Shown here piece after piece: positions 31,227-46,104 of a DNA stretch of 46,227 nt (positions are counted from its first letter, which is position 1; each line of letters starts with the position of its first letter). The stretch is from Actinomycetota bacterium (GTDB taxonomy: Bacteria > Actinomycetota > Thermoleophilia > UBA2241), in the NCBI GenBank assembly GCA_003132585.1, contig PKYG01000123.1, forward strand, positions 532 through 46,758, read 5' to 3'. A program made the position numbers and the translations under genes. A model generated the notes under the pieces. That model worked only from the letters and a program-made list of their open reading frames with translations, was not told the origin of the DNA and did no database searches.

Positions 31227-32015
31227 CTAGCGCACGCAGCGCCAGTCCAAATGGCCCTCGAACGCACCGAGGCGGGCGATGAATCTCCGCTGAGAGTAGC
31301 CCCAGGCATTCTCAATCAGTCCGCCCAAGGTGAATGCCAGCTCGGCTACGTCATCACCCTTCGGCCAGCGTTCGCACTCACGCCGCAGTAGAACGTTGAC
31401 GAGGCGGCATCGATTGGCATCCTCGAGCCCCTCGTGTGGTTCGCGCCAGCCTTCGCCAAGCCCGGCAAGCAGGCTGCCTTCGGTGCCCGCCATGCCAAGC
31501 GTCACCTCCCACGGACCCTTGGCCTCCAGCGGTGTCAGGCTGGACAGCACACTGAACGCCGACCACAGCCGGGCGACGATCCGCGTTAGCCAGAAGTACT
31601 TCGTGTCCTCTCGCAGGCGCGCCACTTCCGATCCCAGACCGACGTCGAGACCACCGGCTCGGGTTGCGCAGAGGTACTGGCTCCACTCATCCTGGACAGA
31701 GCCGGGATAGCCAAAGAGGGCCGCCCCTTCGACACACGCACACCTGCCGTGACCCCACAGTCGAGCGACCCTGTGCTCTGTGTCCCACTCGTATGTGGCC
31801 TGCGCAAGGCTTTCGATCGTCTGCTCATCGACATCAGCGCCACCGCTTTCGGGCTCACGCGGCAACACAAGGCAGCGCACCGCAACCTCATCGAGATGCT
31901 GCCCTAGGCCGCCGCGTGCGAACTTCTCGTCTTCCACATCGAGCAGATGTGCGGCAACCCTCGCGCGACGCCAACGCGCGCGAATGAGCTCCTGATCACC
32001 AAGCGCAGTCATCAT
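31227..32015 (-). CDS. Hypothetical protein, overlapping the DUF4062 gene (ATGA-type overlap)
   Basis: MMTALGDQELIRARWRRARVAAHLL...; no recognised family. Confidence 0.6.
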   Translation of the reverse strand: MMTALGDQELIRARWRRARVAAHLLDVEDEKFARGGLGQHLDEVAVRCLVLPREPESGGADVDEQTIESLAQATYEWDTEHRVARLWGHGRCACVEGAALFGYPGSVQDEWSQYLCATRAGGLDVGLGSEVARLREDTKYFWLTRIVARLWSAFSVLSSLTPLEAKGPWEVTLGMAGTEGSLLAGLGEGWREPHEGLEDANRCRLVNVLLRRECERWPKGDDVAELAFTLGGLIENAWGYSQRRFIARLGAFEGHLDWRCVR

Positions 32016-33109
32016 CCTCCCATCTTCGTCTTGAGCTCGGCCACGACATCGGCGGCAAGCGAATCGGCCTCGCGGGCGAGCGCCGCGCGCGCCAGGGGGC
32101 CTGGAGGCCACTCGACCGTCAGGCGCTCAGGCGCCATCGGTATCGTCATCGACGAGGGGCTAGCGCTGTGCTCCTGCAACGTGCGGATCGGCGCATGGCC
32201 ATGATCGAGTCTGGTGACCGGCAGCACATGCGTCACGCTGCGACGCTCGTCGACGAGATCGAGCAGCACAGAGGCCAGGCGGTAGGTGCGCGCCAATATC
32301 TCGGTAAGCTCCTCCTGCACGATCACCGTCAGTGCTCCCGGCATCTTCATGCGATGTGAGACATCGGCCGAGAGCAACAACAAGCCCGACTGGTCGATCT
32401 TGACTTGGGGTCCTGATGGCTGCTTCAGACACACCTGCTCACTGCTGATCTGGAACGTGCTGCCGACCTCGGGATCGAGGATGGCATGCGGCCCGACAAG
32501 AGCGGTCTGGCGAATGCTGCTCTGAAGACCATCGCTCTGCAGCTGTCGCGGCGAGAGAAGCACCGCCTTGGGAAAGACTGCAACCGCCACATGGGTCATC
32601 GGTCGGTAGCCGAGGGACCCCCTCGGCATCATCCCGAGAGCCTCCGCGCGAAGCTCGGCAGCATCGGGCCGACCCTGCGTTTGGCGAATGACGAAGTCGT
32701 GTAGGGCCTTGATCGTCTTGCCTTTCAGATTCTCAGGGGTTGTGAAGTTCTGGGTAAGCAGGCCAGCCTGCCACTCTCGTACCTCGGCGATGAAGGCCGC
32801 CTGTCGCGACTCTGGGCTGATGCCGCTCTCGACGAAGGCAAGCGCGGTGCCCCGTTCGCGAGCTTCTCTGTACTCTTCATGCGTAGCAGACAGACCAGAG
32901 GGCTGGACAGTCCCATAGCGTTCGCCCAAGACGAGCACCACACAGTCGGCCCAGCGCACACCCTGAAGACAGACCTGCTGGGCGGACTCTTCGCTGGCCG
33001 CAAAGTCCTCGCAACGTCGGACTTCCAGCCCCAGCGTGCTCGCGGCTTCGAATGCCGCATCGCGCTCAGCCCCGAAGCCGGAGACCACCGAGCTAATAAA
33101 GACCTTCAT
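32012..33109 (-). CDS. DUF4062 (TIR-like) domain protein
   Basis: MKVFISSVVSGFGAERDAAFEAASTLGLEVRRCEDFAAS...CLQGVRWADCVVLVLGERYGTVQPSGLSATHEEYREARERGTALAFVESG; a TTG start at 33151 is also possible. Confidence 0.82.
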   Translation of the reverse strand: MKVFISSVVSGFGAERDAAFEAASTLGLEVRRCEDFAASEESAQQVCLQGVRWADCVVLVLGERYGTVQPSGLSATHEEYREARERGTALAFVESGISPESRQAAFIAEVREWQAGLLTQNFTTPENLKGKTIKALHDFVIRQTQGRPDAAELRAEALGMMPRGSLGYRPMTHVAVAVFPKAVLLSPRQLQSDGLQSSIRQTALVGPHAILDPEVGSTFQISSEQVCLKQPSGPQVKIDQSGLLLLSADVSHRMKMPGALTVIVQEELTEILARTYRLASVLLDLVDERRSVTHVLPVTRLDHGHAPIRTLQEHSASPSSMTIPMAPERLTVEWPPGPLARAALAREADSLAADVVAELKTKMGG

Positions 33110-33147
33110 CTGGCGAAACTCCGATAGATGGTCGTTGGTCGTTTGCC

Positions 33148-33357
33148 TCAAGCCTGGTGCTTGCGCAGCAGCTCATCCAGCGAGTCGACTCCATTCTGCT
33201 CCAGGAGTGTGTCGAGGTGCATATCGGAGCGTTTACCGAAGTCGACGCCGTACTGCTCTTCGATCGTGCCGATGTGCGCATCGCCACGCTTCTGGCGTAG
33301 TCGACCGTCCTCATTGCGAGAGCGGTCGCCTTTCATCCCAGGCGCATCAGTGAACAT
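33148..33357 (-). CDS. Small hypothetical protein
   Basis: MFTDAPGMKGDRSRNEDGRLRQKRGDAHIGTIEEQYGVDFGKRSDMHLDTLLEQNGVDSLDELLRKHQA; immediately upstream of DUF4062 gene. Confidence 0.6.
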   Translation of the reverse strand: MFTDAPGMKGDRSRNEDGRLRQKRGDAHIGTIEEQYGVDFGKRSDMHLDTLLEQNGVDSLDELLRKHQA

Positions 33358-33683: not shown

Positions 33684-35075
33684 TCAGTCGTCGAGCAAAG
33701 TCAGCTGGCTCTGATCGACCGAGGCTGCATCAACGTAGTGGGACAACAGCCGCTTCAACCGGCCGGTGGATGCCGCGCCAACGTCACGCCGTGTGATCTT
33801 CTTGGCCGCTACAACGCTCATGAACTCAACTCGCTCGCCGGATGTCAACGCGTGGAAGTCGCGGCGCCAATCACCGGCTCCATTCGGGGCATGGGCGCGT
33901 CGATGGACGATGTAGTCCTCTGGCATGACGGCGATCTCCAGGAACTCATCGCTGTCATGGCCAAATGCCGCTTCGAAGAAATCCAAGTGGGGACCCACCA
34001 TGCCACGCGTTGCCACGAGAATGCATTGAACGCCGCGAAGCAGCCGGGGCGTCCAATGCTTTCCAACATACGACCGGTCCTTGGCATTCAACGGCACGTA
34101 CTTCATCGGAAAAGAGTAGATCTGCGTGCCGAGTGTCTCGTTCAAAACGGGGTTCAGGCGTAGGCGATCGTAGAAGTCCTGCGGAGTGTCCCTGTAGTTG
34201 AACAGAATGTAGTTCGACAGATGCCTGACTCCGTTCTCGGCTGCAAGTCGCACGCCAGCCTCATACACCGGCCGCAGTCTGGAGTCATCAAACGCCAGCC
34301 TCAAGGGCCGGAGGGCTGTCCTCGCCAGGAGTGCCATCTTCTCAGGCGTGAGCAACCGCACGTCGGTCCCTTGATTGAAGTCGACTCGACGCTGGCGACC
34401 GTTGAGCTTCGCTCCGCGTTCGTAGCCGAGATCAACCAGGTCGTTGACTATTCGACCGAGGGCGTCGGAGGCGAGCACGCTGTTGTCCATCAACACAAGG
34501 TCGTGTCGTTCCCCAAAGAGCATCTCCAGGGACTTCAGCTGGCGCTTTAGCGGGAGGTAGTCAATGAAGTTGGGCTCTATCTGACTAACAGCACAGAAGT
34601 CGCATCTATTGGGACAGCCTCGCGTCGCATAGCCGAGGTACGCGTCTTGAAGACCGTACTGGTAGTTGATCGTGTCGAGCATGGAGTAATCGGGGGTGAG
34701 CTCATCGACCACCACGCGCGAGTCGGAGTCGAGTTGGCCGGGCTCGTTGAGCAGTCCGCGAACGACGGTCCCGCCGGTCAAAGCCGCAACCTCATCCCCC
34801 ATGAGAGTCGCCATCACGCCGCCGATCCAGATGTCCTGCTGACTGGCCACCGACTGCGAGTAGAAACGCACCGTGCGGATGGTGATGTCCCAGTAGAAGG
34901 TGAAGAGCGATGAGACATAGATGCGATCCCACTGTTGGCCTGCGATACCCGTGTCGCAGCCCTTGACGAACCGAACATAGTCCCCGCGCCGCTGGTGATA
35001 CGTCGAGATCTTCATCAGCCCCAGGGGCGGGTACTTGTTGTGGAAGTTCGGCTCGACTAGAAGGATGCGACGCAT
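33684..35075 (-). CDS. Radical SAM protein with B12-binding-like N-terminal region
   Basis: MRRILLVEPNFHNKYPPLGLMKISTYHQRRGDYVRFVKG...YATRGCPNRCDFCAVSQIEP (CxxxCxxC); start could be upstream at 35120. Confidence 0.85.
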   Translation of the reverse strand: MRRILLVEPNFHNKYPPLGLMKISTYHQRRGDYVRFVKGCDTGIAGQQWDRIYVSSLFTFYWDITIRTVRFYSQSVASQQDIWIGGVMATLMGDEVAALTGGTVVRGLLNEPGQLDSDSRVVVDELTPDYSMLDTINYQYGLQDAYLGYATRGCPNRCDFCAVSQIEPNFIDYLPLKRQLKSLEMLFGERHDLVLMDNSVLASDALGRIVNDLVDLGYERGAKLNGRQRRVDFNQGTDVRLLTPEKMALLARTALRPLRLAFDDSRLRPVYEAGVRLAAENGVRHLSNYILFNYRDTPQDFYDRLRLNPVLNETLGTQIYSFPMKYVPLNAKDRSYVGKHWTPRLLRGVQCILVATRGMVGPHLDFFEAAFGHDSDEFLEIAVMPEDYIVHRRAHAPNGAGDWRRDFHALTSGERVEFMSVVAAKKITRRDVGAASTGRLKRLLSHYVDAASVDQSQLTLLDD

Positions 35076-35080
35076 GCGGC

Positions 35081-35515
35081 CTACACCAGCTGATCGGGGA
35101 TGAACTTCAGCAGTTGCCATGACAGATCAGCACAAGCGCTGGTGTCCAGCTTGAAACCGTCTGCCTTGACCATGAAGCGTTCGAGCAACTCGTCGATCAG
35201 CACTTCCATGCCGCCGTCTGCGTAGGACTCCGCGATCTGAACGACGGCCTTGTCGTCGTCGAGAACGCTGAAATCCATCTGCCTTTCATCGGTCGCTACG
35301 GCGTAGTAGCAGGCCCATTCATCGGCCGTGATTGTCCCCGACCAGAACCGCTCGGCTCGTTTGGCATCTGTGGCCGCGCGCCGGCCAGTTCTCACCCCCA
35401 GACAGAAGCACAGGAAGAACACTGAGTGGGCTTCTCCGCAATGAGGTTTCAAGTCCTTGTAGAGCTGCTCGAACCGTGAGTCAGTCTTCACTCTGATGTC
35501 TGTGGACTGCTTCAT
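35081..35515 (-). CDS. Small protein, possibly DndE-like
   Basis: 144 aa MKQSTDIRVKTDSRFEQLYKDLKPHCGEAHSVFFLCFCLGVRTGRR...; position after the DndD-like gene and N-terminal pattern are suggestive only. Confidence 0.5.
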   Translation of the reverse strand: MKQSTDIRVKTDSRFEQLYKDLKPHCGEAHSVFFLCFCLGVRTGRRAATDAKRAERFWSGTITADEWACYYAVATDERQMDFSVLDDDKAVVQIAESYADGGMEVLIDELLERFMVKADGFKLDTSACADLSWQLLKFIPDQLV

Positions 35516-37566
35516 GCGTCCTCCTCTGTGTTCTTCAGGAGGGCCAGAGCCTCGCTCACCTTGTACTCGCGCATCGTCGTCGAGCCGTCAGGTTGTGACT
35601 CCAGTACAGCGAACTTGCCCCAAGCGCCGCCTCGCGATAGCAGGCTCGCCTCGCGGCGGCCGAGTTCGGTGTCGGTAGCAAGCAGTATCCATTGAGCGGC
35701 AGCTCCCGGAATCTGACTGATGAGGTTCTCACGGTGCTGCCATGACAACTTGCCGAATGGCGTGTCCATGAATAGAGGCATCTCAAGAACCTGACCACCC
35801 GCGGCTGCCCGTGCAAGCGCAAGGATGAACGAGATGGATGCCACTTGCCGTTGGCCAGCGGAGATATTGGCAAGGAACGGCTTGTCCCACGGATCTAGCA
35901 CCTGCAGCGAGTAGTCATTCTCGACGACGATCCTGCGCAGCATGCTCCTTCCTTCGTCGTCAAGCAGTCGAGAGAAGATCTCGCTAGCGTTGTCAGAGAG
36001 TCGAGTCTTCACCTCTGAAGTGAATTCACTCTTGACGTTGTCCAGCGCCTCGTGGGTGCGCAGGGCCAACTCAACCCGCTCGGCAAGTTCGCTCTTCTGA
36101 CCCTCGACACGCTCCAGCTGCTCACGCCTGTTGCTGCGCTGGCTGCGCTCCACCTCGCGGTCCGCGATCTCGTCCTCAATCTTCAGCCGTTCGGCCTTGC
36201 GCTCGATCATTCGACTCTCAGTAAGCTGCCTCGTCTTTTCGAGATCCAGGAGGTCGCCTCGCTCGCTGCCGCCAATCTGTTCGTTGATGCTCTCGATGCT
36301 CTTGGTGGCGGTCTCCATCGAGTTACGAAGATTCCCGTAGCGCTGGATGGTGGTCTCAAGGAAGACTCGTATGTCGTCGAAGCGTCCGAGTAACCCGCTC
36401 AACAGTCGCCACAGGTCCATCGCGGCGTTCTCGATGTGCTCGTCCACCGCCTTGTTCTTCCACTCTAGGATCGCCTCGAAGGCGCCCGGGACACCGGGCG
36501 TGACTGGCCTACCGCAGATGCACTTCTCGTCGCTTAGGATTCTCTCGATTAAGTCCTTGCGCAAGGCGGTTGGAATCTCACCACTCTGCCGCTTGTCCTC
36601 AACCGTGCCGTAGACTCTCTCAACCAAGTTGCTTGCCAGAAGAACGGCCGACGGACCAACGCGGTCGCGCATCTGCACAAGCAGCTCGTTCGCTTGGGTC
36701 TTCCACTCCTCCCGGGCATCCTCAAGGCGTTTCCGCTCGGCGACCTGGGTGGCGATGCCTTCGTTCGCGGCCAGCGCGTCGTCGAGTTTCTTCTTCTCGC
36801 CTCCCGCCAGCAGTAGCTCCTTGTCGATCTCTTCGAGCCTGGCTGTCCTTGCATCTAGCTCCCGCTGCAGTTCGTTGAGGCGCGTCACCACTTGCGCGTA
36901 CTCCCCTGTGGAGACCTTGGACAGCTCCTCGCCGAGGAAACCGCGGAGTCTCTTGAGGGCAGCCAGAGCCTTCTCCAAGTCGTCGATGTCCAGAAGGCAT
37001 CGAATTCCGCGAGCGACCTCGATTCGCTGGGCGGCACTCGACCTGGTCAAGTGCTCAATCTTCTCGCCGTCAAACAGGAAGTACTCGCGAACACGGCGGT
37101 CCAGGATGCCGTTCAGCGTTCGCTCGATCTCCGAAGGGCTGTCGACCAACTTGGTGTTGCCGTTCTTGTCTTGGTACCGAAGCTCCGCCTTATCGACCTG
37201 CTCGAGGTGGTCTCCATTGTGCAGAACTCCCTTTACACGTCGCTCAACGTCGTAGTGCACTCCGTGGTGAGTGAACTCAACTTGGACCGTTGCATAGACG
37301 GGGTTGCCTGCTTCACTCGCTTCAACAAGCGTCGGCGTGTTGACAAGACGCAGATCCTCGCGCCGAGTGTCCTCGTCCTGAGCGAGCGAGCAGTCACCGT
37401 AGAGACAGAACATGAGCGCTCTGAATAGGCCGGTCTTGCCCCGTCCGTTCTCACCGAGGATGACCGTCACGTTCTTGCCCTTGCCCGGCTCTCCAGCGGC
37501 GAAGACCAGAGACTGCCTACCCCTGAATTGGCGGAAGTTCTCTACGGTGATCTGTTTGAGAATCAT
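35512..37566 (-). CDS. SMC/RecF-type AAA ATPase, DndD-like
   Basis: MILKQITVENFRQFRGRQSLVFAAGEPGKGKNVTVILGENGRGKTGLFRALMFCLYG, coiled coils around CICGRPVTPG, NISAGQRQVASISFILALARAAAGGQVLEMPLFMDTPFGKLSWQHRENLISQIPGAAAQWILLATDTEL. Confidence 0.87.
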   Translation of the reverse strand: MILKQITVENFRQFRGRQSLVFAAGEPGKGKNVTVILGENGRGKTGLFRALMFCLYGDCSLAQDEDTRREDLRLVNTPTLVEASEAGNPVYATVQVEFTHHGVHYDVERRVKGVLHNGDHLEQVDKAELRYQDKNGNTKLVDSPSEIERTLNGILDRRVREYFLFDGEKIEHLTRSSAAQRIEVARGIRCLLDIDDLEKALAALKRLRGFLGEELSKVSTGEYAQVVTRLNELQRELDARTARLEEIDKELLLAGGEKKKLDDALAANEGIATQVAERKRLEDAREEWKTQANELLVQMRDRVGPSAVLLASNLVERVYGTVEDKRQSGEIPTALRKDLIERILSDEKCICGRPVTPGVPGAFEAILEWKNKAVDEHIENAAMDLWRLLSGLLGRFDDIRVFLETTIQRYGNLRNSMETATKSIESINEQIGGSERGDLLDLEKTRQLTESRMIERKAERLKIEDEIADREVERSQRSNRREQLERVEGQKSELAERVELALRTHEALDNVKSEFTSEVKTRLSDNASEIFSRLLDDEGRSMLRRIVVENDYSLQVLDPWDKPFLANISAGQRQVASISFILALARAAAGGQVLEMPLFMDTPFGKLSWQHRENLISQIPGAAAQWILLATDTELGRREASLLSRGGAWGKFAVLESQPDGSTTMREYKVSEALALLKNTEEDA

Positions 37567-37733
37567 GACTGAGACCCAGCCTTCACGATCTCCCGGACCC
37601 AGTTCTTGAGCCCCTCGAACACCGCGGTCTCCGAGTTGTCGTGCGCGAGCTCCAGCGCCCTGAGCGCGAGCTTCCTCACGTTGAGCGGCTGAGCATCAAG
37701 TTTCGCAGCAATCTCGTCGTGAATGTCACCCAT
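37563..37733 (-). CDS. 56-aa small protein overlapping both neighbours
   Basis: Read directly: MGDIHDEIAAKLDAQPLNVRKLALRALELAHDNSETAVFEGLKNWVREIVKAGSQS*; start overlaps helicase stop, stop overlaps DndD-like start (ATGA). Absent from ORF track. Confidence 0.7.
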   Translation of the reverse strand: MGDIHDEIAAKLDAQPLNVRKLALRALELAHDNSETAVFEGLKNWVREIVKAGSQS

Positions 37734-39891
37734 TCAAGTCCCCCCGTACGATTGGATCGTCCGCACCGCCGATTTCGCTCTCCCCGGCAAGTGCCTGTTC
37801 GTAGAGCTCCCAAGGTGTCTCATCGAGCATGTTCAGAGCCTGATAGGAATCGAGGAGGTCAAACACGACCTTTCGGGCCGCAAATGTGTTCTTCGCGGCA
37901 GACGAGAACTCCGCGAATCGCGGCATCTCTCTGCGCAGCAGACTAAGGCTCGTGTCACGACTAATGTCGGTAACATCGCGCGGTGGGACTACAAGGAAGT
38001 CGTAGATCACGGCTTCTGACTTGCCGACTGACAGTCGAAGAACCCGGCCGCGCCGCTGCACAAACTGACGCGGGTTCATCGTGCTGGCCAAGAAGAAGGC
38101 CGTCTGCGTGGCTGGAACGTCGACTCCTTCGTCCAGACAGCGCACCGCAACGAGCACCTCAATGGCGCCCGCTTCGAATTGACCAAGCACGGTCTCTCGC
38201 TCGGCAGAGGAAACGGTGTAAACGAATTCGTGGCATCGCAACCCCAAGCTCGCGAGTTCGCGGAGCACGCGTTTGTGCTCTCCCGGCGCGCAGTAGACCA
38301 AGACGTGGTGGAGTCGTTCTCCGCGCTCGTTCGCACTCTCCATCAGCTTCCGTATCTCACTGACAAGGCAAGGGAGCTTCTCTCTGGCTGCCCACACCAC
38401 CTGGGCTCGGTCAATCAGCGCCTTCTTCAGCGCGCGGTCTAACCTCGAGTCCTTCTTCGCCGCTTCGTGCAGCCGCACGATGGCGGTAGTCAGCTCTTGG
38501 TATTGCTCGAGCTCATCATCGGTGAGAGCGACGAGCACGGGATGGTACTCGTACTGAGCGAGATACCCTTGCTCCATCGCTTCGGCCAGCGTGAACTCGA
38601 AGCAGACTCCACCGAAGCACTCGCCAATGGCGGCAGTACCTGCCTCGTCAAACCATCTGCGTGGCGTCGCCGATAGACCGAGGTGCATGCCCGCCATGGG
38701 AAGCATCGCTGATTGGAACCCCGTCGCGCCGAGCCCGTGTACTTCGTCTCCGATGACTAGCGTGCTTTCCGCCGACAATGACTTGACCGCTTTCGAGAAG
38801 TCCTGGCCTGAGGCCGTCTTGTGAACGGCAAGGATGCAGATGGCAGAGGAAAGGCCAATCCGGAAGTCGCTGACTGCGCTTGGAACATCCAGTCGCCAAT
38901 CCGCATGACCCGTCCCGCACAGAATCGGTGAGAAACCGAACGCCTCGCAGTGCTTCCGCCATTGCTCGAGAAGATGCAGATACGGAACCAAGACCACCAG
39001 GGCGAGCCTGCCGCTGCGCTGATACTCCTGCGCAGCCGCCGCCAGGGCCGTATACGTCTTCCCCGTCCCCGTTGCCATCTCGAGGATGCCCTTGCGTCCC
39101 TGGGCAACCCACGCGTCGATAGCTGCCTTCTGGAAGGGGCGAAGGTCGACCGCGACGTGAGGCACAGGGGCTGATGCCTGCCCCTGCTTTGCAGTGCCCG
39201 GAACGGCGTATGGCCGGTCAGGTGTTGTCCTAAGCCGAATCAGCTCTTGGCGAGACGCCTCAGGAATGGTGCGGACCACAAACTGGGCGTTGGCGCCCGA
39301 CCACAAGTCCTCCAGCCTGCGTTCATGAAGCCCGACGTAGGCATCCTGACCAGGCACCCATGACTTGAACACCGAGATGGCCTCTCCGTTGAGCGTTCCT
39401 TTGACCGAGTCGTTAAAGGAACCGTGAAGAGCCACTCGATCATCTTTGGTATCTCGAAACACCCAGACCTTATCGTGATAGTCGCCACCGGCCCACCGAG
39501 GTCGAGCAATCGCAAAGCGAAACTCAAGCAGGCCATCTGCTATCAGCCAAGCTAGTGTGTTGCGCGTGTCATGCTCCAAGGAATCGGCGAGATCCTCGAT
39601 CGCAACCTGGAGCGATGCGCGCAGGATCGAGTTCTGCTTGGCCTCATCGCCCTTGTGGAATGCGGACCAGTCCTCAGGCTGAAGGATGGGAGACGTGACG
39701 ATACGACCGGTTCCGCCGTTGTGGACAAGCGCCACAATACCGTCGCTGGCCTCACGGAGCCAGCCCGACGAGAAGTAGCCGACACCCCTAGAGTACTTGT
39801 GCGCCTGTTCCATGAGGGGAGATATGAGGTCCCGCACGAGATCAGACGAGGCACTGTCGTAGACCGGAGCCAGCTCAAGATCTCTAAGCAT
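37726..39891 (-). CDS. PLD-like nuclease domain fused to SF2 DEAD/DEAH helicase
   Basis: N-term HDKVWVFRDTKDDRVALHGSFNDS (PLD-like HxK..GSxN), then GILEMATGTGKTYTALAAAAQ, VIGDEVHGLGA, LGLSATPRRW, VAVRCLDEGVDVPATQTAFFLASTMNPRQFVQRRGRVLR. Confidence 0.9.
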   Translation of the reverse strand: MLRDLELAPVYDSASSDLVRDLISPLMEQAHKYSRGVGYFSSGWLREASDGIVALVHNGGTGRIVTSPILQPEDWSAFHKGDEAKQNSILRASLQVAIEDLADSLEHDTRNTLAWLIADGLLEFRFAIARPRWAGGDYHDKVWVFRDTKDDRVALHGSFNDSVKGTLNGEAISVFKSWVPGQDAYVGLHERRLEDLWSGANAQFVVRTIPEASRQELIRLRTTPDRPYAVPGTAKQGQASAPVPHVAVDLRPFQKAAIDAWVAQGRKGILEMATGTGKTYTALAAAAQEYQRSGRLALVVLVPYLHLLEQWRKHCEAFGFSPILCGTGHADWRLDVPSAVSDFRIGLSSAICILAVHKTASGQDFSKAVKSLSAESTLVIGDEVHGLGATGFQSAMLPMAGMHLGLSATPRRWFDEAGTAAIGECFGGVCFEFTLAEAMEQGYLAQYEYHPVLVALTDDELEQYQELTTAIVRLHEAAKKDSRLDRALKKALIDRAQVVWAAREKLPCLVSEIRKLMESANERGERLHHVLVYCAPGEHKRVLRELASLGLRCHEFVYTVSSAERETVLGQFEAGAIEVLVAVRCLDEGVDVPATQTAFFLASTMNPRQFVQRRGRVLRLSVGKSEAVIYDFLVVPPRDVTDISRDTSLSLLRREMPRFAEFSSAAKNTFAARKVVFDLLDSYQALNMLDETPWELYEQALAGESEIGGADDPIVRGDLNG

Positions 39892-42688
39892 GCACACCCT
39901 CAGTCGCCACGACCTCCATCCCACGTATCGAGACGGACCCCTGACCGTCGAGCATGCTCGCGGTGAGCTGCTTCAAAATCACGCCCTCATCACGCAAGCG
40001 GGACTCCAGAACCGACAGTTTAACACCGCCGCCGTAGTCACGACGCACCAACCACGACACCAAGTCGCCAAAGATCTCGATTCCTAGCGGATTGGGCCGG
40101 GTTGCGAACGCGTTTCGCCCATTGCCCAAGAGAAGGAAACCGCCGGTGCGCTCCAGCATGCTGGCCACGAGTTGCTCAGTCCACACGACACCCACGGCTA
40201 TCTCCGGAAGGACATCCTCCTCTAGCATGGCCCGAATGGTGGAGAAGCAGTTGCCGGCCGCGATGTCAGCAGCGAACCGCTCGGCCGCGGCGTGATACAC
40301 GACTTCGAAATCGGAAGTCGACAGGCCAATTGAGTCCTCATGAATGACACTGCCCGGGAGGTACCGGTAGACGTGGTGTCGGTGGACGATCGCGTACACC
40401 GTGGGTGCGCTGTACTTCCGCCTCTCGACGAACTCCTCCTCGAGCTCCTGGTAGCTGCACGGACCTTTCTTGGCCCGCACGTACTCCTCGATGTTCTCAA
40501 GCACTGACACCGACGTAGGCGCATCCTGCGCAGAATGAGCTAGGAGGGGGTAGTGCGCAGCGGTGACTCCATGGGCATCTGAGAGACGCATGAGCGAGAA
40601 CAACAGCTCCGGCGAGTCAATCCCGCCCAGCACACAATCGACCTTTAGGTCGTCGAACACGCGCTTGATCGAAACTTGGCTATCGTCCCGAAGGAGGCCC
40701 GCTGCGTGCCGGACGCATTTGTCGAGAGCACCGGGGTCAACGTCAACGTAATCCTCGTGCACCAGAGCCGAATGGGCTGTTCTCAGAGTGCTGGGAATGC
40801 CCCAAGCCAGTGCTTGGCCAAGCTGGAACTCCTTGAACCCCATCCTCCCAACCACTAACGCTTTGAGCTCTTTGGACGATACCGGCTGTCCAGCCGCTCG
40901 GACGTACTCCCCGATAGCGACTGACAGGGGCACAGGCGCGTCGTAGCCGCGCGAGGAGAAAATCCGAGGGTAACGCGGGTATCTGAGCTCCGCGTCTGCA
41001 GACATCCGCAGCAAGCTATACAGGGCCGATTCGCTCGGCACGCTCTGTGCTTCGCAGGCAGAGCGGAAATGTTCAAAGACGCCGTGAACCGACATCATCG
41101 GCAAACCGTCGGGGCCGGCCAGACAATCTCGGATCCAGTCCTCGACATCGCGCAGGAGTGCATACGGGAACGGCATGTGATCTTTGTGGACGTAGGTGCC
41201 TCGGTCCCAAAGGACGGCGTTGGAACTACGATCCAAACAGGCGTGTACGTTCCTCGCAGAGTCTGAGCGATACCCCTCCTGCCCTAATACTGCGTGAACT
41301 TTGTTGAAATGCATTGGCCGAGCTTCACGCCGCAGCACCTCATCGGCCCGATATGCCAACGAGTCGGGGCGAAATGGACCGGCTGCGTTGGGGATCACCC
41401 AGGCGCGCCGCAACGCGAGATTCTCTTCTCGGGCCGCCGCCGCCATGATGACCAGCGGGGACACATTGTCGACAAGGCAATGGTCACCTCTGGACCCCTC
41501 ACAGCCGGCTTCAACAAGTGCGGCCGCCTCCTGCAGCGGAACCGCCATTTGTCCGTGTTCGATCTCGTCGAGCACCCGTCCTACGACACCGCAGCCAAGG
41601 CACGGAAGTCCGGCGAATATGACAACATCCGAGTTCGTGGCCATCTCGCACTCGGGGATGATCTCGGCAAGCCCGAGAACCGCCGTTTCGGGAGGCGCCT
41701 CGCCGAGCTGCATAGAAACGGCGATTCCTTCAGCCAGGTCATGGGCGCCAAGAGCTCCTCCATTCGCAAGAAGGCAATTGACCACCGTGACGCGGAAAGG
41801 CAGCAGCGTCTCCAAGAAGGCCGCAGAGTCGAACCCTCGTAGCGACCGCTTCTCGATTTGATCAACCCTGGCTCCGGTCACGCCCAGCAGCTCGCCGATC
41901 GCTCGGTGCGTCTCTCGCCTGCCAGTGAGCAGGCCCAGACGGTAGAGGTGAACATCGTAGGCGCGGTTCCCTCGGTCTGGCGACTTAATGCCGCAGACCA
42001 GAGCCCTCCGTACAAGCGCTTCAAGGCTGGTTTCACCCGAGGGCAATAGCCTGGCTTCCGGCAGCGCGTCAATCATCGCCGACAACGCGTAGCAGTGCTC
42101 CACCGCGGTGAGCCCGTTGATGCCGAGCCCAAACTCGGTGAGGATCTGCCCTTCAGTTACCCCCCGCAAAGAGCCAAGAGTGGTCATCTCGTTCGTCTGA
42201 CAGAAGTGCGCCAGCGCAGGACACAATCGGAAGGTTGCGAGGCGCAAGTCCCTAAGAACTTGAGGCACGGACTCAATGATTGGACTTGCGCAAGTCCAGA
42301 TGTCCGCCTGGACTTCATGGCCGATTGTGAGGGCAACCTCTTTCTGGAGACTCTCGAGCAGACTCCGAAACGCGTCCGGCCCATCGAACATGCGCATCAG
42401 GTAGCGTGTGGTTGCGGTGAGGACGAGCTCAATGTCATCTTCGAGCGTGATGAAAGGTGACACTAGACCGGCAGAGACCTCTGCAGACCGGCTCACTGAA
42501 GTCAGCGGCAGGGACTCGAACGCCCGCCAGAGCGCATCGCTCTCGTCGTCTGAGAGGTGCCACAGCTGTGGCAGCGTCTGAGAGAGCACGCTGTCTCGTG
42601 GGCAAGCCACACACTCAGCCGACCCCGGCTCGACACTGAAGAACCATGGCTCGCGCGACGACAGCAGGGTCGCGAGATGATTATGCAT
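39884..42688 (-). CDS. Large multi-HTH protein with sigma-region-4-like and possible RNAP alpha-CTD-like segments
   Basis: 934 aa; HRAIGELLGVTGARVDQIEKRSLRGF resembles sigma-70 region 4; TLGSLRGVTEGQILTEFGLGINGLTAVEHC resembles alpha-CTD HhH; repeated wHTH-like units such as IGEYVRAAGQPVSSKELKALV. Confidence 0.65.
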   Translation of the reverse strand: MHNHLATLLSSREPWFFSVEPGSAECVACPRDSVLSQTLPQLWHLSDDESDALWRAFESLPLTSVSRSAEVSAGLVSPFITLEDDIELVLTATTRYLMRMFDGPDAFRSLLESLQKEVALTIGHEVQADIWTCASPIIESVPQVLRDLRLATFRLCPALAHFCQTNEMTTLGSLRGVTEGQILTEFGLGINGLTAVEHCYALSAMIDALPEARLLPSGETSLEALVRRALVCGIKSPDRGNRAYDVHLYRLGLLTGRRETHRAIGELLGVTGARVDQIEKRSLRGFDSAAFLETLLPFRVTVVNCLLANGGALGAHDLAEGIAVSMQLGEAPPETAVLGLAEIIPECEMATNSDVVIFAGLPCLGCGVVGRVLDEIEHGQMAVPLQEAAALVEAGCEGSRGDHCLVDNVSPLVIMAAAAREENLALRRAWVIPNAAGPFRPDSLAYRADEVLRREARPMHFNKVHAVLGQEGYRSDSARNVHACLDRSSNAVLWDRGTYVHKDHMPFPYALLRDVEDWIRDCLAGPDGLPMMSVHGVFEHFRSACEAQSVPSESALYSLLRMSADAELRYPRYPRIFSSRGYDAPVPLSVAIGEYVRAAGQPVSSKELKALVVGRMGFKEFQLGQALAWGIPSTLRTAHSALVHEDYVDVDPGALDKCVRHAAGLLRDDSQVSIKRVFDDLKVDCVLGGIDSPELLFSLMRLSDAHGVTAAHYPLLAHSAQDAPTSVSVLENIEEYVRAKKGPCSYQELEEEFVERRKYSAPTVYAIVHRHHVYRYLPGSVIHEDSIGLSTSDFEVVYHAAAERFAADIAAGNCFSTIRAMLEEDVLPEIAVGVVWTEQLVASMLERTGGFLLLGNGRNAFATRPNPLGIEIFGDLVSWLVRRDYGGGVKLSVLESRLRDEGVILKQLTASMLDGQGSVSIRGMEVVATEGVHA

Positions 42689-43182: not shown

Positions 43183-43953
43183 CTAGCTGTGCGGCCGTAT
43201 GCGCACCACATAGTAGTCACGCACGCCCGTGGCTAGGGGGAAGAGCGAACCTGGTGGGATATCTTCGATCTCGAAGTGCGGCATCGGTTCGCTCGTGCAT
43301 TCCAGCCTCTCGAACGCCGATGACGACTCGAAGATTCTCGGCCGAAGGTGCCTAACCTGTTTGTCATCCAGGTACACCAGGCCCTGGAAGGCGTCCATGA
43401 CGGAATTCGAAAGCCGGTCGGCGTCCGGCAAGCTCACGGGCTCACTTGAGAAGACGTCAATCATCATTTCAACCGGTCCCTGCAGCGGGCGCCCAAACGA
43501 GGCCCCGATTGTCTCTCGCTGTCTCAGGACCTCCTCCCGAAGTCTTGCCTTTCCACCCTTGCTTCTGACGGACCTTGGCGCTCCCTCTAGAACGAATGCG
43601 ATGTGCCCCCTGGTGACACCGAGATACGGGTACGTCACACTCGACTGAGCCAAGGACGACACCCACTCCCGAATCTGGTCACATTCGTATTCCTGCAGAA
43701 TGGTAGCTCCTTTGACATTGCGGATGCCCTGCACGTTGTCCCAAGGGTAGAAACGTAGTTCCCCCGCCTCGGCCCAGTCGCCATCGCTCTGGCGCAGGTC
43801 GGTGATCAGCAAGGCATCACGAGCGAACCGTATTCCGTCGCGATGGAGCCAGATCAGCTCCTTGCAGAAGTCCGTGTACGTGATCTCGGACTCAAGGGAG
43901 ACGCCGAAGGCATCGAACAGCTCAGACCCGCGATGAAACAGCCCCTCGTTCAC
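43183..43953 (-). CDS. Integron cassette protein with C-terminal RusA-like endonuclease motif
   Basis: GPVEMMIDVFSSEPVSLPDADRLSNSVMDAFQGLVYLDDKQVRHLRPRIFE resembles RusA (PDxDN...DAL...DDxQV); GTG start chosen just outside attC1. Confidence 0.65.
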   Translation of the reverse strand: MNEGLFHRGSELFDAFGVSLESEITYTDFCKELIWLHRDGIRFARDALLITDLRQSDGDWAEAGELRFYPWDNVQGIRNVKGATILQEYECDQIREWVSSLAQSSVTYPYLGVTRGHIAFVLEGAPRSVRSKGGKARLREEVLRQRETIGASFGRPLQGPVEMMIDVFSSEPVSLPDADRLSNSVMDAFQGLVYLDDKQVRHLRPRIFESSSAFERLECTSEPMPHFEIEDIPPGSLFPLATGVRDYYVVRIRPHS

Positions 43954-43968
43954 CCTGCCACCCCCAGC

Positions 43969-44058
43969 GCCCAACGTGTTGCACATGAGCTGGCGGCTCG
44001 CTGTGCTCTGAACCACATCATAGCCTTCGGGCCGCCCTGCTCGATGTGCTTGTTAGAC
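43969..44058 (-). repeat. Integron attC site 1
   Basis: Minus strand GTCTAACAAGCACATCGAGCAGG...CAGCTCATGTGCAACACGTTGGGC: canonical R''/L''/L'/R' boxes; the TAA stop of 44053-44553 lies within R''. Confidence 0.9.
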
Positions 44059-44553
44059 CGCTGCCTGCACGTCATCGATGCGCTCACGAACCGCCTCCGA
44101 GAGCTCCCTCAAGCCGTAGGCGCTTCCGGCTTGATCTTCGTATGCGTAACGCCACTCCTCGAATACCGTGCTCACAATGGCCAGAACATCGTCGATGGCA
44201 AACGACACGTCCGGAAACTTAGCCTTCATGGCTTGAGCGCTTGGACTTGCACCCATGAGTTCTTCGAACCTCTGGGCGATTGCGGCCCGGCTTGTTGTCG
44301 AGAGCCGTGAGTAGAGGACTTTGAGGCTGTGGGTTCGTGGCACGGTGCCGGTCTCAAGCAGGCCGAGGCATTTCAGGTACAACTCAACCGAGAAGGCGAT
44401 GCAGACTCTCGCCGGGATGAGAAACGGCAGATCCACTGGGCCCTGCGCCGCCGACAAGAGGCGCGCACATTCGGCGTCGAGAAGAGAGGCCGACGCCGCG
44501 AAGTGGGCCGCCGTCTTGAAGATGCGCTCAGCGTTTGCCTCTGCCTTTGTCAC
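44053..44553 (-). CDS. Integron cassette protein, HEPN-like helical protein
   Basis: FLIPARVCIAFSVELYLKCLGLLETGTVPRTHSLKVLYSRLS resembles HEPN-family pattern. Confidence 0.6.
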   Translation of the reverse strand: MTKAEANAERIFKTAAHFAASASLLDAECARLLSAAQGPVDLPFLIPARVCIAFSVELYLKCLGLLETGTVPRTHSLKVLYSRLSTTSRAAIAQRFEELMGASPSAQAMKAKFPDVSFAIDDVLAIVSTVFEEWRYAYEDQAGSAYGLRELSEAVRERIDDVQAAV

Positions 44554-44576
44554 GGTCCCCCCGGTGCCTTGAGTCG

Positions 44577-44639
44577 GCCTAACGTGGGGCGCATAACCTG
44601 CAGCCCGCCAGGGCTGTCAGGTTGAGGCGCTTGTTCGGC
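44577..44639 (-). repeat. Integron attC site 2
   Basis: Minus strand GCCGAACAAGCGCCTCAACCTGACAGCCCTGGCGGGCTGCAGGTTATGCGCCCCACGTTAGGC. Confidence 0.9.
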
Positions 44640-44643
44640 AGCC

Positions 44644-45216
44644 CTACTCGCACTGCCACAGAAACCGCGTCTCGGTGGGGCAGGCGTCACAAACGAAGGC
44701 GAAGCCTTCTCCAGCGTCGCCGAAGTTGATGCCGCCACCACCTTCCGCCGACAGCTGAAGTGCGAACCGCATGCGACTACCGCAGGCGCACGTCGGCGTC
44801 TCGTCGCCCTGGATCCATTCCGGCTCACCACCAACCCGCCCCAGGGCTCCTCTTTCCGGGTCTCGAACGACAGCTTCAACTGGGTCAACAGCGGCAAGTA
44901 GGGTCTCACCCGACGTGGGCGGCTGGAACGTCGCGGCCGCAGCCGCCGGAACCAGGCGAGCTGCGTTGCCGCCGGAGTCTGGGTCCCACTCGTCGCACAT
45001 GCCTGGGTCGTTGGCGCACTGAAAGACCAGGAGCAGCTGCTCTCGCGAGGCTAACGCGGGGACTCCGCAATCCGGCAAAGCGAGCTGCACGAGGAACTGC
45101 ATGGCCCCGCCGCACTGCTTGCAGACGGGCCACTCGAAACTTTCCGGTGCATCCGGCAAGCCCCCGATTCGGGATTGCGACCCACTCCCTTGCGTACGAA
45201 CCAGCCAAGCTGTCAT
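44644..45216 (-). CDS. Integron cassette protein, DUF1963/YwqG-like
   Basis: SRIGGLPDAPESFEWPVCKQCGGAMQFLVQLALPDCG...LLLVFQCANDPGMCDEWDPDSGGNAARLV. Confidence 0.7.
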   Translation of the reverse strand: MTAWLVRTQGSGSQSRIGGLPDAPESFEWPVCKQCGGAMQFLVQLALPDCGVPALASREQLLLVFQCANDPGMCDEWDPDSGGNAARLVPAAAAATFQPPTSGETLLAAVDPVEAVVRDPERGALGRVGGEPEWIQGDETPTCACGSRMRFALQLSAEGGGGINFGDAGEGFAFVCDACPTETRFLWQCE

Positions 45217-45239
45217 CTCACCCCACCTCTCCGCGGTCT

Positions 45240-45299
45240 GCCGAACGTTGTGCGCGTGAGCTGCGCGCGAAGCGCGTCTGCTCGATGCGCTTGTTCGGC
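45240..45299 (-). repeat. Integron attC site 3
   Basis: Minus strand GCCGAACAAGCGCATCGAGCAGACGCGCTTCGCGCGCAGCTCACGCGCACAACGTTCGGC; long imperfect palindrome. Confidence 0.92.
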
Positions 45300-45300
45300 A

Positions 45301-46104
45301 TCACTGCTGTGCCAGTCGATCACGGACATGATTCGAGCCGAAGGCGTACCCGATGCCGACGTTAGCCGAGCGCCGGAGGTTCACGGCTATTTCCCGCATC
45401 GCGGTCTGCGAAGCCCTCAGACCCTGGACGGGATCGACGCCGGCGATGACAACCCGCGCGCCCGTCGGTTGATTCAGCTGGTCAATGTTCTGACCGAGAA
45501 CTTGGATCATTGCATCGAACTGGTCCGCCAAGAACCCGACTTCAGCACGCGAGATGATGCCAACCACGCTGCCACTACGTAGCTCAACCAACGGGCCTCC
45601 CGAGTTGCCTCCGTTGACACTGGCATCGATCTGAATGACATCGACTTTGGCTCGTTGGTGGAGGCTGGAGACGTACCCGACATGGCACGTGAGATGCTGC
45701 ATCCGAAACGGGTAGCCCAAGAATGCGACCTGATCTCCAACGGCCAGGCTGTCGGAATCGCCGAACGAGAAGACATGGCGGCCAGCAAACTCCGGCTCAT
45801 CCAACCGAAGAAACGCGACGTCGTGTTCGTTCGAAGGTGAGTCGTAGGCTACTGCCTGCAAGCAGATATCACGAGCAAGGCGGATGCCGGCTCCATAGTC
45901 CATTTCCTCGAAGCGAAGTACAGCGACGTCGAACCCTACATCACGAAGGACGTGACTGTTGGTCATCAGACCGCCGGGAACGAGGAAAGCCGTGCCCGCG
46001 GTCAGTACCTCGCCTCCGACTTCCAGGGATACCTGGGCGACGCCCGACCTACAGGATGTGAATACTTCCTGAGTGGTCACCGCTTCCTTCCGTATGCCGA
46101 ACAA
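45301..46104 (-). CDS. Integron cassette protein, trypsin-like serine protease
   Basis: GTAFLVPGGLMTNSHVL (His), EHDVAFLRLDEP (Asp), IQIDASVNGGNSGGPLVELRSGSVVGIIS (GNSGGP Ser motif). Confidence 0.9.
   Translation of the reverse strand: MFGIRKEAVTTQEVFTSCRSGVAQVSLEVGGEVLTAGTAFLVPGGLMTNSHVLRDVGFDVAVLRFEEMDYGAGIRLARDICLQAVAYDSPSNEHDVAFLRLDEPEFAGRHVFSFGDSDSLAVGDQVAFLGYPFRMQHLTCHVGYVSSLHQRAKVDVIQIDASVNGGNSGGPLVELRSGSVVGIISRAEVGFLADQFDAMIQVLGQNIDQLNQPTGARVVIAGVDPVQGLRASQTAMREIAVNLRRSANVGIGYAFGSNHVRDRLAQQ

Follow-up and report, generated by a model that had tools for sequence, protein, structure and literature searches.

A six-gene operon of an Actinomycetota bacterium raises the question of which enzyme would provide the modification chemistry in a gene set that is built from relatives of the Dnd DNA phosphorothioation proteins and ends with a radical S-adenosylmethionine (SAM) enzyme. 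The operon was analysed in a stretch of 46,227 nucleotides, referred to below as the window, which covers positions 532-46758 of contig PKYG01000123.1 (C22) of the assembly GCA_003132585.1 and reaches the contig end; the source assembly (G000) has 3.0 Mb and is 91% complete. Judged from its sequence, the operon is a known kind of anti-invader cassette, PbeABCD with its CxC ABC-ATPase, accompanied by a multi-helix-turn-helix (multi-HTH) gene and the radical SAM (rSAM) gene. Five of the six genes are known Pbe company and the rSAM gene is the new part. Our preferred reading, to which slightly better than even chances are given, is that the rSAM is the self-marking module of PbeABCD, in place of a sulfur module (DndACDE or 3'-phosphoadenosine 5'-phosphosulfate (PAPS) reductase) or a methyltransferase module.

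Composition of the operon

All six open reading frames (ORFs) were found where a preliminary description of the sequence had placed them, head to tail on the minus strand, with neighbouring genes overlapping by 4-8 bp or separated by a few bp, and their order recurs in other genomes. A wholly new system, as proposed at that stage, was ruled out by the PADLOC models, which name both PbeA and PbeC. Four of the genes form the PbeABCD or CxC-ABC-ATPase system already described (PMC6459918, PMC10853773), which commonly has the multi-HTH gene as its neighbour, so the novelty is confined to the rSAM partner. No paper linking radical SAM to Pbe, DGQHR or DISARM was found in a literature search with thin coverage of subscription journals and bioRxiv, so that a prior description is possible.

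The ORF at 39891-37726 (minus strand, 721 amino acids (aa)) was assigned to PbeA by PADLOC with E = 6.9e-213, and its match to NCBIfam dnd_restrict_1 (6.8e-134) reached 447 bits, under the 600-bit cut-off. The HKD (phospholipase D-like) nuclease motif is intact (H139-x-K141, G157-S-x-N160) and is fused to a superfamily 2 (SF2) helicase with complete motifs (GTGKT275, DEVH382, SAT407, QRRGRVLR612). H139, K141, G157, S158 and N160 were invariant across 12 PbeAs. An alternative GTG start at 39924 would give a longer pbeA; the homologues begin at MLR. The following 56-aa ORF (37733-37563, minus), which overlaps both neighbours, matched no family model in PADLOC, Pfam or NCBIfam and is PbeB-like by its size and its place between PbeA and PbeC, where described systems have the small, fast-evolving PbeB, with homologues in three of the related loci (L010, L012, L015).

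The product of 37566-35512 (minus, 684 aa) had been described as a DndD of the structural maintenance of chromosomes type. The relationship to DndD holds, but the protein is specifically PbeC, since the PADLOC PbeC model matched with 7.4e-158 and the best DndD model with only 5e-57. It contains Walker A (GENGRGKT38), the signature SAGQ569 and a coiled coil, while the CxxC reported earlier had to be corrected to a CxC zinc hook, C349-I-C351, which makes it the "CxC ABC ATPase" described in PMC10853773. Sequence searches of the PDB with PbeC and PbeD resulted in no match. The AlphaFold model of PbeD (35515-35081, minus, 144 aa; predicted local distance difference test score (pLDDT) 91.5) showed a strand-helix-helix unit twice, with a long last helix; strand-helix-helix twice is the layout of DndE according to PMC10853773. 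The top PDB matches of this model in Foldseek were dominated by the DndE entries 4lrv, 7x4e and 5wtu, each match being weak (E of 0.2 or more, template modelling score to the target up to 0.65). By predicted fold and order of secondary structure, PbeD is a DndE-like protein with two ribbon-helix-helix units, as had been suggested for this ORF.

The first gene of the operon (42688-39884, minus) encodes the multi-HTH DNA-binding protein of 934 aa. Its earlier label "sigma-like" is not carried by the Pfam model Sigma70_r4 (E = 0.004, below the cut-off), although Pbe-linked homologues are named "sigma factor-like helix-turn-helix DNA-binding protein" by the annotation pipeline PGAP. Such homologues precede pbeA in Ruegeria pTHAF33_d and R. 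leguminosarum, where the dnd genes are complete, and in L. plantarum, where no dnd genes are visible. A tblastn search of plasmids with the 934-aa protein gave no match although PGAP-named homologues lie beside PbeA matches.

The rSAM gene (35075-33684, minus) encodes 463 aa, or 478 aa from an upstream ATG at 35120. The start at 35075 (MRRILLVEP), as given in the preliminary description, is favoured because the homologues in L011, L012 and L015 begin at the methionine of MRxILLVEP. A scan for promoters and terminators yielded no signals above those of shuffled sequences.

The rSAM and the sulfur genes of Pbe loci

To avoid sampling through the rSAM, Pbe loci were gathered through PbeA in four phylum-level samples and in plasmids, read about 10 kb to each side if the contigs were long enough, and their genes were identified with hidden Markov models built from annotated plasmid and genome genes. 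A related rSAM was present in 8 of 49 loci. A PP-loop (DndC/PAPS-reductase-like) protein or a cysteine desulfurase was found in none of these eight and in 32 of the 41 others (Fisher p = 5.4e-5). When the plasmids were left out together with L259, which is the second of two Pbe loci in a genome selected for its rSAM, the result was 0/7 versus 26/31 (p = 6.3e-5). Three of the remaining loci without rSAM carry methyltransferases similar to the seeds.

The same exclusion was seen in whole genomes. The preliminary description had pointed out Dnd-derived parts without DndC, and DndC (TIGR03183) was indeed absent from the entire 91%-complete source genome; a dndC just outside the window was ruled out for this assembly, as the window reaches the contig end and no TIGR03183 match exists genome-wide. 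The sole PAPS-reductase-family gene of the genome is located on another contig (C27:13562-14050), near tRNA-synthetase-like and housekeeping-looking ORFs, and is not DndC. DndC was also absent from 10 further whole genomes with rSAM-linked Pbe or, in the case of G117, with a truncated HTH-PbeA contig. Among four comparison Pbe genomes it was present in two; in the remaining two, pbeA is immediately preceded by a PAPS-reductase gene. A scan by PADLOC, Pfam and NCBIfam that was confined to the named ORFs flanking the operon showed no methyltransferase, and a motif scan gave no hit in the neighbours of L009.

The linkage of the rSAM to the ATPase and helicase genes in other genomes, on which the earlier proposal had been staked beforehand, was found repeatedly. 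When one genome was scanned for each species, at least 549 rSAM relatives were obtained; 80 loci were retained from these. The six-gene order of the window is also present in L009, L010, L012, L015 and L238, and in L011, where the contig is truncated, its last three genes remain. L009 to L012 contain the four best-scoring rSAM relatives, while L238 comes from a later survey; L009 belongs to Ca. Cryosericum septentrionale SMC1 and its proteins are identical to those of the window. In the loci sharing this arrangement the distance from the PbeD stop to the rSAM start was -40 to +4 bp, often an overlap. Five or six lineages are represented: Cryosericum, Actinomycetes, Bacillota, Desulfocapsa and one more member of its phylum, and, with a truncated contig, Lentisphaerota. 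The rSAMs of L009-L012, L015 and L238 form one clade with support 90.

Members of the wider rSAM family stand beside Pbe independently, namely the long forms of L048 and L239, a different B12-type enzyme on a long branch (L240), the rSAM of L021, and a phage-like subfamily (L185, L186, L246, L249, L259). On the rSAM tree the Pbe label requires about 6 changes, at least 4 of which are imposed by branches with good support, compared with a mean of 14.3 for shuffled labels. These several changes, together with the position of the rSAM upstream of pbeA in L185, L186, L246 and L259, point to repeated recruitment; the link between rSAM and Pbe arose several times. One Bacteroidota genome (G404) has two Pbe loci, L021 and L259, each with a different rSAM subfamily.

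Candidate roles of the rSAM

The CxxxCxxC motif of the rSAM corresponds to C169, C173 and C176 (numbered from the upstream ATG 35120), and the triad was invariant in 40/40 relatives, whereas the match to PF04055 was below threshold and PADLOC has no model for the protein. The predicted structure (pLDDT 93, predicted template modelling score 0.90) has a B12-binding-like N-terminal fold. The closest solved folds in Foldseek were MgmA, AprD4, MtaB, MiaB and RimO, with identities of 11-15% to MgmA, AprD4, MiaB and RimO; the nearest folds belong to rSAM enzymes whose substrates are proteins, sugars and RNA bases. MgmA was also the sole, weak match in a PDB sequence search. AprD4 has a B12-binding-like domain but is not known to bind cobalamin. 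MiaB and RimO depend on three further cysteines that hold an auxiliary Fe-S cluster. Among the relatives of the rSAM only the triad is conserved, as C55 occurred in 7 of 39 and C366 in 22 of 38 sequences; the enzyme is therefore expected to have no auxiliary cluster of the MiaB/RimO type, and a methylthiotransferase was ruled out by the lack of conservation of the three additional N-terminal cysteines. A prokaryotic viperin was rejected after searches of Pfam, NCBIfam, PADLOC and the PDB sequences gave no match.

The rSAM also matched the PHROGs phage family phrog_9298 (3e-42). Short relatives of the rSAM (phrog_9298) are present in Marinitoga camini virus 1 and in a Bacteroides LoVEphage (L172), where genes for PAPS reductase and DNA methyltransferase lie nearby, and a role in phage DNA modification is possible there.

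Relatives of the rSAM were also found in other restriction-like cassettes. A GHKL (HSP90-like) gene, for which an HSP90 match was obtained, is present in 49 loci and adjoins the rSAM gene 53 times. The cores joined to rSAM-GHKL pairs are ParB-PDDEXK-SNF2-ParB, DpdB-like DGQHR proteins (7e-11), DrmA, DrmB and NERD-UvrD (1e-172, 7e-59 and 1e-70, respectively), a HerA-like gene with a weak mad8 match, and PD-Lambda-5_A-like proteins. Several of these cores act elsewhere with DNA modification enzymes. The recurrence of the rSAM in such cassettes fits an exchanged modification module.

The rSAM is located directly downstream of DrmA-DrmB-(NERD-UvrD) in L044, L050, L052, L056, L058, L059, L064, L085 and L094; in most of these nine loci it lies upstream of a GHKL ATPase. 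Their core is DISARM-like, and no DrmM-type methyltransferase was noticed. The cassette of DGQHR (DpdB-like), rSAM and GHKL is carried by Rhizobiales and Novosphingobium plasmids (L169 on pNL1, L170, L173), close to a gene pair of a PIN-like and an ATP-binding protein; two of the three plasmids are typed as conjugative and PADLOC has no name for the set.

The exclusion of sulfur genes and the recruitment into other restriction-like cassettes lend strong support, of a circumstantial kind, to the earlier proposal that the rSAM provides the modification chemistry, and it is on these grounds that we infer it. In the proposed order of events, PbeC (hook ATPase) and PbeD (DndE-like), perhaps with the multi-HTH protein, would scan DNA for a motif that they recognise, and the rSAM would place a protective modification on the host DNA at this motif by means of the 5'-deoxyadenosyl radical. 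PbeA (HKD nuclease-SF2 helicase) would then act on unmarked DNA or stall its replication, and PbeB may restrain or couple the complex. Whether Pbe cleaves DNA is disputed between PMC6459918 and PMC10853773. With chances somewhat short of even, the widespread rSAM family as a whole may make a radical-based self-mark on DNA (base, sugar or backbone) and be exchanged as a module among restriction cores that are not related to each other (Pbe, DISARM-like, ParB/SNF2/nuclease, HerA-like, DGQHR), in the place otherwise taken by sulfur or methyl modules. Because members of the rSAM family are also part of DISARM-like and ParB/SNF2 cassettes, a single biochemical result would account for several defence loci that are so far uncharacterised.

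Several observations weigh against the self-marking role. Six of the 41 Pbe loci without rSAM have no recognisable modification gene in the stretch read, so Pbe may not need one. In one Pbe locus the gene immediately upstream of the rSAM (L185:2030-4621) encodes a MutH-type domain fused to a C5-cytosine methyltransferase. The lack of methyltransferases beside the rSAM rests on Pfam/PADLOC tallies (25 families listed) and motif scans, and a further one could be hidden, because the motif scan missed one that the tallies showed. A recognisable CxC hook was absent from the searched stretch of PbeC in L185, L186, L246, L249, L021 and L240, which include several systems with phage-type rSAM. In many of the other cassettes the partner of the rSAM is the HSP90-like ATPase, not DndE.

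In the main rival, itself improbable, the rSAM would be a viperin-like effector or alarm that produces a modified nucleotide or small molecule, or modifies tRNA or host proteins, once Pbe senses invasion. Viperins provide a precedent for rSAM enzymes in anti-phage defence (PMC12926258), the HSP90-like ATPase often paired with relatives outside Pbe (49 loci) is a possible sensing module, and the nearest folds include RNA-base- and protein-modifying enzymes. However, the exclusion of DndC/PAPS-reductase modules (0/8 versus 32/41) would not be expected of an effector, a role already supplied by PbeA, and the Pfam, NCBIfam and PDB searches showed no sequence similarity to viperin.

It is less probable again that the rSAM works on the restriction side, attacking or tagging invading DNA or reversing phage hypermodification so that PbeA can act. 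Phage-type relatives (phrog_9298) lie near the genes for PAPS reductase and DNA methyltransferase of the LoVEphage, so that members of the family may have phage DNA as their substrate, whereas the mutual exclusion with a self-marking sulfur module suggests a self-marking role. Only a slight chance is given to a solitary Pbe system with a linked, functionally separate rSAM that hitchhikes in a defence island. According to Xiong et al. (PMC6459918), 165 of 553 PbeAC are solitary with no modification genes nearby, and the six loci mentioned above likewise have no visible modification gene; but co-oriented, overlapping or nearly overlapping genes kept across phyla, the at least 4 forced label changes and the excluded sulfur genes speak against chance company. 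The least probable alternative is a sulfur-containing mark (phosphorothioate-like or a thio-base) made by MiaB-like radical sulfur insertion, for which the replacement of a sulfur module and the folds of MiaB, RimO and MtaB could be cited, against the conservation of the CxxxCxxC triad only, compared with the extra cysteines of MiaB/RimO, and the lack of a linked cysteine desulfurase.

Surroundings of the operon and comparison with known systems

Directly downstream of the operon, on the minus strand, lies a DUF4062-domain gene (window 32012-33151, Pfam 9.5e-23), possibly a further conflict gene. Upstream (43183-46104, minus) are ORFs with weak similarity to RusA and HEPN proteins, and a trypsin-like protease with PADLOC matches to RT-Protease_XI and PDC-M35A; together these ORFs may be defence-island company.

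Compared with DndCDEA-PbeABCD, the operon has the same order of PbeA-B-C-D and the multi-HTH gene upstream, as in Ruegeria pTHAF33_d and R. leguminosarum, but its genome is without DndC and an rSAM gene follows pbeD. In relation to Dnd and Ssp, PbeC and PbeD are sisters of DndD and DndE, and in most Pbe loci the Dnd/PAPS-reductase genes hold the modification role; here neither a sulfurtransferase of the DndC/PAPS-reductase type nor a cysteine desulfurase is linked, and the rSAM is unrelated to DndC. The CxC-DndE systems with cytosine methylases (PMC10853773) are a precedent for a modification enzyme other than a sulfur enzyme on a CxC-DndE core. The enzyme of the present operon is in contrast an rSAM, and PMC10853773 mentions radical SAM only with regard to the claimed chemistry of DndC.

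DISARM is related through the rSAM relatives that stand directly beside DrmA, DrmB and NERD-UvrD, whereas its core is different and does not occur in the window. Prokaryotic viperins are likewise rSAM enzymes of anti-phage defence, but the rSAM described here has a B12-binding-like N-terminus, sits in a nuclease/helicase/ATPase operon and showed no viperin similarity in the searches. With MgmA and AprD4 (B12-binding type), MiaB and RimO it shares the overall fold at the low identities given above, without the auxiliary-cluster cysteines. The mode of action of solitary PbeABCD without phosphorothioation genes was left open by Xiong et al. (PMC6459918). PbeABCD with an rSAM would be a direct answer for a part of these systems and, if true, predicts a new kind of DNA marking.

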